Positions 43,025 through 45,611 of a stretch of 64,000 nt of DNA are shown in pieces (position 1 is the first letter of the stretch; each line of letters begins with the position of its first letter). The notes under the pieces are model-generated. The model was not told the origin of the DNA and searched no databases. It saw only the letters and a program-made list of their open reading frames with translations. Made by a program: the position numbers and the translations under genes. Source of the stretch: Sphingomonas changnyeongensis (GTDB lineage: Bacteria > Pseudomonadota > Alphaproteobacteria > Sphingomonadales > Sphingomonadaceae); the NCBI RefSeq assembly GCF_009913435.1, contig NZ_CP047895.1, positions 938,501 through 1,002,500 on the forward strand. Direction: 5' to 3'.

Positions 43025-43543
43025 TCACTTCTTCTCTTCTGGAGCGATCGTCACCATGATGAAGCCCTTGACCGGCTCCGGCTCGGGCTGGACCGTCATC
43101 CGCGCGGTAAGCCGGCGATCCTTCAGATCCCAGCCGAACCGCGTCTTGCGTGATTGCGAGTCCTGCTGCTTGACCGGCTCCGGCTTCCAAGTGCCGGGGA
43201 TCGCGAACATGTCCGTCAGACGCTTCTCGACTGGAGCAGGCTCAGTGCCGAACACCATCACCATGCAGACGCCGCTGTCGTAGCCGACCGCCCAGGCCTG
43301 ACCCTCGGTGGAGGGCGCGCCGGCGAACTGGGCGGACCCGTAGAGCGTGCTCTTCATCACCTTAAGTTGCGGCGGCGGCTCCGGACTGAAGATCAAACCG
43401 TTGCTTGCCATCGCCGTTGCGTTCTCGGCGACGATCGGCGCGTTCCCGAGGGCATGGCCGACACACTGCATCAGCGCCGTCCCCGCCGCCTGCTCGGGCG
43501 GCGGAGCGGCCGCCGCCGCGAGCGCGACAGCGAGCGCAATCAC
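43025..43543 (-). CDS. Secreted protein of unknown function inserted between atpD and atpC
   Basis: I do not recognise this 172-residue protein. It begins with a short signal-like hydrophobic segment (about 2-14), then a small domain with Cys at LMQCVGH, the core [17 protein letters not shown], and a charged C-terminal half ending [13 protein letters not shown]. Its GTG start overlaps the atpD stop (GTGA), and its stop is one base from atpC, so it is fully embedded in the F1 operon. The pattern of early Cys, W-A, and G[IV]C resembles the other inserted protein at 45060. Confidence 0.7.
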
Positions 43544-45012
43544 GCCGCTTCAGCCAGCTTCTTGGCCTTTTCGACCGCTTCGTCGATGCCGCCAACCATG
43601 TAGAAGGCAGCTTCGGGCAGATGGTCATATTCGCCGTTGACCACCGCCTTGAACGACCGGATCGTGTCGTCCAGCTGGACGAACTTGCCCGGAATGCCGG
43701 TGAACACTTCGGCGACGTGGAAGGGCTGCGACAGGAAGCGCTGGATCTTGCGCGCGCGGGCGACGGTCAGCTTGTCCTCTTCCGACAGCTCATCCATCCC
43801 GAGGATGGCGATGATGTCCTGCAGCGACTTGTACTTCTGCAGGATCGACTGGACGGCGCGCGCGGTGTCGTAATGATCCTGGCCGACGACGCGCGGTTCG
43901 AGCACGCGGCTGGTCGAATCGAGCGGATCGACCGCCGGATAGATGCCCAGTTCCGAGATCGCGCGGCTGAGCACGGTCGTCGCGTCGAGGTGCGCGAACG
44001 AGGTGGCCGGCGCCGGGTCGGTCAGGTCGTCCGCGGGCACGTAGATCGCCTGCACCGAGGTGATCGAGCCCTTGTTGGTCGAGGTGATGCGTTCCTGCAG
44101 CGCGCCCATGTCGGTGGCGAGCGTCGGCTGATAGCCCACCGCCGAGGGGATGCGGCCGAGCAGCGCCGACACTTCCGAACCCGCCTGGGTGAAGCGGAAG
44201 ATGTTGTCGACGAAGAACAGCACGTCCTGGCCTTCGACGTCGCGGAAATATTCGGCGATGGTCAGGCCCGACAGGGCGACGCGGGCGCGCGCGCCCGGCG
44301 GCTCGTTCATCTGGCCATAGACGAGCGCGACCTTCGACCCCTCGCTGGTCGGGTTGCCGTCGGCGTCCTTGGCGATGACGCCGGCGTCGAGGAACTCGTG
44401 ATACAGGTCATTGCCTTCGCGGGTGCGCTCACCCACGCCCGCGAACACCGAGGTGCCGCCATGGCCCTTGGCGATGTTGTTGATCAGTTCCTGGATGAGC
44501 ACGGTCTTGCCGACGCCCGCGCCGCCGAACAGGCCGATCTTGCCGCCCTTGGCATAGGGCGCGAGCAGGTCGATGACCTTGATGCCGGTGACGAGGATGC
44601 TCGCCTCGGTCGACTGATCGATGAAGGCCGGCGCTTCGGCATGGATCGGGGCATGGGTGTCGGCACCGATCGGGCCACGCTCGTCGATCGGCTCGCCGAC
44701 CACGTTCATGATGCGGCCGAGCGTCTTGGGGCCGACCGGAACGCGGATCTGCGCGCCGGTGTCGGTCACCGGCTGGCCGCGGGTCAGACCCTCGGTCGAG
44801 TCCATCGCGATGGTGCGGACGAGGTTTTCTCCCAGATGCTGGGCGACCTCGAGCACAAGGCGCTGGCCGTTATTGTCGGTTTCGAGCGCCGACAGGATCG
44901 CCGGCAGCTGCTGATCGAAGGCGACGTCGACGACGGCGCCGATCACCTGCGAGATGCGGCCGGTGTTAGTAGCCGGGGCCACGCTTCTGTTCATCGCTTG
45001 GGGCTCGAGCAT
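43540..45012 (-). CDS. atpD: ATP synthase F1 beta subunit
   Basis: The catalytic subunit of F1, 490 residues. Walker A GGAGVGKT is at 163-170, Walker [17 protein letters not shown], and the DELSEEDKL segment (DELSEED motif) is complete. AAGGAAAG precedes the ATG at 45012. The gene is preceded by one small secreted protein gene and followed by another, with the downstream one overlapping its stop. Confidence 0.99.
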
Positions 45013-45059
45013 TACGACTTTCCTTACAGCTTACAGCGCTTGGGCGCCGCGATCCTAAA

Positions 45060-45611
45060 TCAGTTTTGGGGTTTCACGAACGCGAATGTAATCAGGTGTT
45101 GGTGCTCACCTATACGTCTGTCGGACGACGTAAGAGCAATCGCTGAGGTGCGCCCCGAACTTTTGAGCTGAGCCGATCGGAATGTCAGTGTGGCATCCCC
45201 TTGTTTTCGGCTTTGTCCTACCGTCGGCTCGGCGTTTCCGGCTAACTCTCCAACCAGCGCCTCGTAAGCGGCTACAACGGAACCTTCCGCTGCTTCAGCG
45301 ATCCGAACTTCGCAGATCCCGGCAGGGTTATAGCCCAAAAGAAAAATGCCATCGGATGGGCTCCGGATGGCCCAGCCTAAGCCCCCCGGCACTCCGTATA
45401 TGCCGGTAACGACCGCGTCCGGAAGTTTCGCCGCAATAGGATTGGTAACGCCCAGAACCAAATTGGCTTTCGCCGACGAGCCCTCGGTGACGACGCAAAA
45501 AGCTTTGAACAGCCGCATCGCTTCCACGGCGCGTGCATCGCTTTCCGCAGACGCAGGGCTCGCAAACGCCAGGACAGCGAACAGCGGCGCGACTTTCAAA
45601 GCTTGCATCAT
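45060..45611 (-). CDS. Secreted protein of unknown function inserted between atpG and atpD
   Basis: A 183-residue protein with a good signal peptide (cleavage near SPASAES, residue 22). I do not recognise it. The mature part has Cys in [10 protein letters not shown], a centre [19 protein letters not shown] then [14 protein letters not shown], and a Ser/Thr-rich end. It starts in an ATGA overlap with the atpG stop. Composition is unlike atpA or atpD (bases 45061-45120 hold 29 G+C of 60; 46801-46860 in atpA hold 42 of 60), suggesting acquisition. Confidence 0.7.

Follow-up and report, generated by a model that had tools for sequence, protein, structure and literature searches.

The order of the F1 genes in ATP synthase operons is a textbook case of conservation. 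In the atp operon of Rhodopseudomonas blastica, a gene of unknown function was reportedly found by Tybulewicz et al. in 1984 between the gamma and beta genes; this extra frame, like one of the two described here, lies at the atpG/atpD junction of an alphaproteobacterial F1 operon. Invasion of conserved core clusters is also described in the excerpted text of PMC8046335, which gives nrdHEF between rplL and rsmC as an example and attributes 77 of 115 events to inserted genes. As excerpted, those cases are single-lineage events, often between operons, whereas in the F1 operon of the Sphingomonadaceae the same junctions within one operon have been filled many times, mostly with exported cargo and with overlapping start and stop codons. 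A survey, in its excerpted text, argues that any unexpected interruption of the F1 operon should be harmful (PMC5709465). Insertion into conserved clusters is thus known, but the repeated filling of fixed F1 junctions, chiefly with genes for exported proteins, is apparently new, no description of it having been found among titles and abstract openings of the open-licence literature.

The window analyzed here, a stretch of 64,000 nucleotides to which all coordinates refer, comes from Sphingomonas changnyeongensis (contig NZ_CP047895.1, positions 938,501 to 1,002,500). ORF calls, Pfam and tblastn gave the gene order atpH-atpA-atpG-X-atpD-Y-atpC on the minus strand, as the first-pass annotation had proposed from the letters and their open reading frames. 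The features are as follows:

48118..48714, minus strand: atpH (delta/OSCP), PF00213
46586..48115, minus strand: atpA (alpha), an ORF with ∼91% amino acid identity to the atpA of congeners (tblastn)
45608..46492, minus strand: atpG (gamma), PF00231
45060..45611, minus strand: X, 183 aa, a probably exported two-cysteine protein in the atpG/atpD slot, NF047650 match
44999..45052, minus strand: putative relic left behind X, with an old atpG 3' end (∼45031-45052) followed by the former spacer and an atpD leader (spacer alignment)
43540..44994, minus strand: atpD (beta), PF00006 and others
43025..43543, minus strand: Y, 172 aa, a two-cysteine protein with a hydrophobic leader in the atpD/atpC slot, with same-slot relatives in other genera
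42769..43023, minus strand: atpC (epsilon, 84 aa), PF02823 only

Delta/OSCP, gamma, beta and epsilon were recognized in a Pfam scan that did not include atpA, which was assigned from tblastn comparisons with relatives. Neither X nor Y matches an ATP synthase family in Pfam, in agreement with the earlier view that they are not ATPase subunits, and the junctions are as that annotation described them. The ATG of X shares the atpG stop codon in an ATGA overlap (45608-45611), the GTG of Y shares the atpD stop codon in a GTGA overlap (43540-43543), and one base separates the stop codon of Y (43025-43027) from the ATG of atpC (43023). At 65 nt, the distance from the end of X to the atpD ATG (44994) is too great for tight coupling of the two genes; a second possible atpD start is the in-frame ATG at 45012, upstream of 44994. 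We consider that X and Y belong to a single fast-evolving family of exported, probably periplasmic proteins with two cysteines, that they lie at two F1 junctions which in the Sphingomonadaceae recurrently take single genes, mostly for envelope proteins, and that they use the expression of the operon without being F1 subunits. To this reading we assign a probability of roughly 0.55.

X and Y had been suspected of being distant paralogues because of a loose common pattern, and the pattern is present in both translations (C39, W80-A81 and G98-I-C100 in X; C27, W84-A85 and G91-V-C93 in Y). A direct match between the two proteins was not found (BLASTP E 3.6). However, X without its leader, compared with 99 cargo proteins, matched L111, a Y-family protein from the atpD/atpC gap of a Porphyrobacter, at E 3.4e-5 and another protein at 0.0029, the best of 60 shuffled versions of X reaching 0.024. 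Comparisons of X-type with Y-type profiles scored weakly (probability 0.1–7%, E 0.0017–0.34 in ten runs), with the cysteines in register in the best local alignment. X matched the Yii profile at E 0.01 and did not match Yall at 0.01, and it sits in the other slot; Y matches Yall, of which it is itself a seed, and sits between atpD and atpC. When 13 hand-picked relatives were aligned, the start methionine and two cysteines alone were invariant. AlphaFold2 models of Y (pLDDT 77.4, pTM 0.75) and X (pLDDT 74.1, pTM 0.68) both begin with three helices and three long strands, followed by a further helix and a last set of strands, four in Y and five in X. The first cysteine lies within helix 1, which is long, and the second where the third long strand begins. 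Rather than unrelated folds, the models thus have nearly the same order of elements, although they are not independent because the alignment for X included Y relatives. The connection through L111, the paired cysteines of the 13 relatives and the similar models suggest that a common origin of X and Y is likely, which supports the paralogue guess without proving it.

Against the PDB, Foldseek did not reach E 0.001 with either model. Partial matches of the X model were to EagT6, DcrB, PsbP, MTC28, LpqN and SciW (E 1.6e-3 at best, query TM 0.30–0.39), with probabilities of 0.90–1.00 for the first five. The Y model reached LpqN with a probability of 0.54, and its best-probability match was PA1624 (E 0.06). 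EagT6, DcrB and PsbP belong to what we take to be one grouping, the Mog1/PsbP/DcrB/EagT6-like fold; the partial matches of X and the weak recurrence of LpqN for Y are too little to file either protein there. Taken as a lead, the partial likeness to proteins of the DcrB/LpqN/EagT6 type would point to lipids or membrane segments as what X and Y bind. Among PDB sequences, X matched ribosomal protein L2 (E 0.004) and Y matched the CFA/I fimbria (E 1.8e-6, over 40 residues of an engineered fusion); neither match was repeated by the family profiles and both were rejected. Single weak matches to TIGR01244/BLH phosphatase and to PDC-S48 among X, Y and their relatives were taken as chance, and no usable match to these proteins came from Pfam, PHROGs or PADLOC.

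X exceeds the curated cut-off of the NCBIfam family NF047650, the NMCC_0638 family (41.8 bits, cut-off 28), over nearly the whole profile (positions 2–149 of 150), whereas Y gave no match to it up to E 10. The first-pass annotation had allowed that the proteins might belong to a well-characterized unrelated family; NF047650 is named, after a meningococcal gene, but is apparently uncharacterized. The name of the family includes '(lipo)protein', whereas X, inspected by eye, has no lipobox; the meningococcal NMCC_0638 gene is tabulated as a lipoprotein in the excerpted part of PMC8007298. Homologues of X were found in two of 149 genomes, its own included. Searched against 397 genomes of the bacterial family, the NF047650 profile gave matches in nine, eight of them above the cut-off, and in the eight genomes besides that of the window no atp gene was found around the match, which is not beside atpG or atpD. 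The GC3 of X is 0.592, compared with 0.844 for Y and 0.847–0.896 for the atp genes: the codon use of X is foreign-looking and the composition of Y is native.

The 65-nt spacer between X and atpD aligns nearly full length to the atpG 3' end, spacer and atpD leader of Sphingomonas changbaiensis (score 42, against 22 for the best of 300 shuffles). Comparisons with nine relatives beat all 300 shuffles in seven cases, in two of these seven via the atpD leader, and failed to do so in two, UBA1000 among them. The relic bears no likeness beyond chance to the window's own present atpG tail (score 14), and a search at X for a duplicate of the tail of the gene upstream of the slot was likewise negative. 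Because the spacer behind X aligns to the atpG end and spacer of relatives, X appears to have been set before the old end of atpG. With its low GC3 and this relic, X is a recent insertion that probably brought a new end for atpG and left the old one behind it. An upstream-gene relic was seen in one of 46 post-cargo spacers tested, that of X, and the idea that cargo regularly leaves such a relic was rejected.

Five congener genomes carry no insert at either junction, their spacers measuring 31–116 nt (atpG/atpD) and 50–133 nt (atpD/atpC). One of them, the sister Sphingomonas sp. UBA1000, has 93.5–96.7% DNA identity to the window over part of atpG, atpD and atpC, with gaps of 66 and 50 nt. NF047650 and two Y profiles matched nowhere in the five genomes, the UBA1000 assembly being ∼80% complete. 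Homologues of X and Y do occur in other genomes, so the insertions are not unique to this one, as the first-pass annotation had considered they might be. In UBA1000, the bases running from the atpD stop codon onward, TGATTTCGCT, look like the beginning of Y, TGATTGCGCT, which weakly hints at a loss of Y in this genome, and the atpD leader differs from that of the congeners. The empty atpD/atpC and atpG/atpD spacers of the other four congeners (L016-L019) bear palindromic repeats that look REP-like by eye, and the same junctions thus tolerate repeats as well as genes.

In a survey of the F1 gaps, a slot was called filled when it measured 250 nt or more, length being the sole criterion. The first set comprised 80 named loci chosen by best atpC match, and the second set 120 loci, 115 of them taken by atpC rank alone and five (L248-L252) for carrying Y relatives. 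The counts exclude these five loci, L021 and the window, all of which were retained in the tree; the 195 other loci were reduced to 192 by removing three without a usable atpD and to 189 by removing three duplicates. Because selection began at the top of the atpC ranking, the sample is closer to the window than evenly drawn loci of the family would be. Among these Sphingomonadaceae, the atpG/atpD slot was filled in 49 of 186 loci and the atpD/atpC slot in 32 of 189. The corresponding counts for 68 loci of other alphaproteobacterial families were 5 of 66 and 1 of 61, an excess for the Sphingomonadaceae in both slots (Fisher p ∼9e-4 for each), at atpD/atpC due in part to a four-transmembrane (4-TM) family inherited by clade. 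The atpH/atpA junction was never filled (0/72). That of atpA/atpG was filled in 22 of 74 loci in the first survey, mostly with a LysE-type exporter in Sphingobium and in one case by a broken atpA frame (L048), and in 5 of 119 in the second. Insertions at the atpG/atpD and atpD/atpC junctions therefore recur in the Sphingomonadaceae, with contents that differ between genera. Because the same gaps often hold differing, mostly exported or membrane proteins, the data suggest that the F1 operon in this family is a recurrent landing site for envelope genes.

Among 49 atpG/atpD cargo ORFs of at least 80 aa, a hydrophobic N-terminus was found in 43 and a lipobox in 34, compared with 17 and 3 of 53 ORFs of the window; the latter were picked by a crude rule, and the export call is a hydropathy rule that transmembrane proteins pass too. 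One short Cys-containing family, for which a profile was built from 21 proteins, occurs in 27 loci, and the members scanned gave no usable Pfam or NCBIfam match. On a tree of atpD plus atpG, the small lipoproteins of the atpG/atpD slot are inherited by clade (28 carriers, 17 changes, shuffled mean 26.5), as is the 4-TM family of the atpD/atpC gap (15 carriers, 5 changes, shuffled mean 14.7). The atpD/atpC cargo in the 189 loci comprised 9 Y-like genes, 12 genes for 4-TM proteins (including that of L163, assigned by eye after a wrong-frame pick) and 4 for FkbM-type proteins (one member confirmed by Pfam, the others assigned by clustering with it), the remainder being single or unplaced. ORF picking was crude: L252 was likewise picked in the wrong frame and the gap of L112 yielded no ORF.

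Some of these insertions deserve individual mention. The 4-TM protein (L064, L148, L214, L221, L243 and others) has ∼160 aa and the motif ISAFDIHRWR, and the one member scanned gave no Pfam or NCBIfam match. The FkbM-type methyltransferase gene lies between atpD and atpC in L082, L125, L169, L194 and L251, in the last together with a Y-like gene. At the atpA/atpG junction (for example in L051, L066, L102 and L116), many loci of Sphingobium carry a gene for a LysE-type translocator; a few other loci carry one for a 97-aa protein resembling the ABM-domain protein that was confirmed at one of them. The atpG/atpD gap of L317, an alphaproteobacterium, holds two short ORFs that by eye resemble a YefM/YoeB-type antitoxin-toxin pair.

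Neutral hitchhiking, in which short genes insert where translation tolerates them and are later lost, would account for cargo that is heterogeneous and patchy, and the repeats seen by eye in the spacers of the four congeners are consistent with junctions that tolerate DNA. We regard it as very unlikely: it would not predict the strong bias to signal-like and lipobox starts or the recurrence of the same families in the same slot, and open frames with two cysteines have been kept in the 13 hand-picked proteins.

Y gave no match in Pfam or NCBIfam, and its leader has no Lys or Arg ahead of the hydrophobic stretch. Its relatives include the protein of L058 (BLASTP E 3e-13). Two profiles (A2 and A3) made from Y and its atpD/atpC-gap relatives were each run on the 397 genomes, with at most eight candidates per genome scored. 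New matches at E 1.1e-10 or better came from six genomes, and all six lie between atpD and atpC; five weaker matches (E 8e-4 to 0.01; L140, L144-L147) have no atp gene nearby and were taken as chance. If expression alone mattered, relatives of Y would be expected beside other strongly expressed genes too; the confinement of the confident matches, among at most eight candidates per genome, to this slot counts against that and hints at a specific tie of Y to atpD/atpC. Compared by hhalign without their leaders, the two Y subfamilies are related (probability 78%, E 1.9e-5). With the loci chosen for Y left out, Y-like genes occupy 9 of 189 atpD/atpC slots. On a FastTree phylogeny of atpD plus atpG from 199 loci, 16 carriers require 15 changes, against a shuffled mean of 15.6. 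On the host tree the distribution of Y-like genes thus looks random, yet among the genomes searched they are faithful to one slot. Turnover of the Y family is clearly fast, loss and transfer being inseparable on these data. In the reading that we prefer, and as a part of it held with the same confidence, the Y lineage would be an older user of the atpD/atpC slot, subject to rapid loss or exchange between species.

Alternatively, the slots might hold exchangeable cassettes, with cargo passing from species to species through homologous recombination in the conserved atpG, atpD and atpC flanks under diversifying selection, as for an inhibitor or immunity-like protein against secreted attack. The random distribution of Y-like genes on the tree combined with their fixed position would fit such a scheme, as would the atpG-tail relic at X, the weak link between Y divergence and host distance (Mantel rho 0.16, p 0.08, 15 proteins) and the depressed GC3 of 15 of 52 atpG/atpD and 18 of 42 atpD/atpC cargo ORFs. 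However, no pair among the 15 Y relatives is above ∼42% identical, so no recent exchange of Y is seen, and the relic is confined to that one spacer of 46. Comparison with the sister genome revealed no clear import tract, identity being lower in the last atpD block and in single blocks elsewhere. X and Y had no match on 72,556 plasmids; likewise, PHROGs phage families gave no match to 13 proteins, and viral contigs scanned with Y contained no relative. On balance, we find the cassette model distinctly unlikely.

The first-pass annotation took the overlaps to mean that X and Y are made in step with the F1 subunits. The overlaps are real and are not peculiar to this locus, as 24 of the 49 atpG/atpD cargo ORFs start at −4 (15 ORFs) or −1 (9 ORFs) relative to the upstream stop. 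The implied bond with F1 fares less well: because the inserts are absent from the sister and four further congeners, their contents differ between genera and some cargo (LysE exporter, ABM monooxygenase, FkbM methyltransferase) has no evident F1 link, a required role of X or Y in F1 assembly is unlikely. A milder proposal makes Y, perhaps along with X, an accessory factor dedicated to the ATP synthase and acting from its periplasmic side, for example in chaperoning or quality control of the membrane subunits of Fo; its synthesis would be coupled to that of F1, and many species could dispense with it. It draws on the confinement of confident Y-family matches to one slot, on the start/stop overlaps and on the partial likeness of the X model to EagT6, SciW and DcrB, one entry title having SciW bound to a transmembrane domain. 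We nevertheless think it unlikely, given the absence of X and Y from all five congeners, the low occupancy of the slot by Y-like genes and their lack of phylogenetic cohesion; the fold match is partial (query TM 0.30–0.39) and does not reach E 0.001. Moreover, Fo genes usually lie elsewhere in alphaproteobacteria. A tentative possibility, doubtful but worth stating, is that ATP synthase has in the Y family a slot-locked partner, exported and subject to fast turnover, whose gene is kept solely between atpD and atpC and which either services the membrane sector from the periplasm or is an exchangeable cassette with the two F1 genes as homology anchors. In either form it would be an operon-internal, position-faithful accessory gene, a kind for which we know of no name.

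Returning to X and Y as exported users of the operon's expression, the benefit of the location would be the strong, growth-linked transcription of the F1 operon. Judging from position, overlap and composition, ribosomes finishing atpG or atpD would restart on X or Y at the ATGA or GTGA. The products would then be exported via Sec, form a disulfide between the cysteine of helix 1 and that of the third long strand, and act in the envelope rather than on F1. The filled slots form a large series of natural experiments on the tolerance of insertions at the levels of operon position, translational coupling and subunit ratio. They also provide a set of unnamed envelope protein families for which location predicts abundant, growth-linked expression.

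At the downstream end of the operon, two minor observations concern atpC and its neighbor. In epsilon (42769-43023), Pfam finds the N-terminal beta-sandwich domain alone, the C-terminal helical domain being missing. Directly after atpC on the minus strand (41570-42640), the translation shows a leader, a stretch resembling the GDSL motif (FGDSLVDAGN) and a tail like that of PEP-CTERM proteins (VPEPASWAMM, followed by basic residues).
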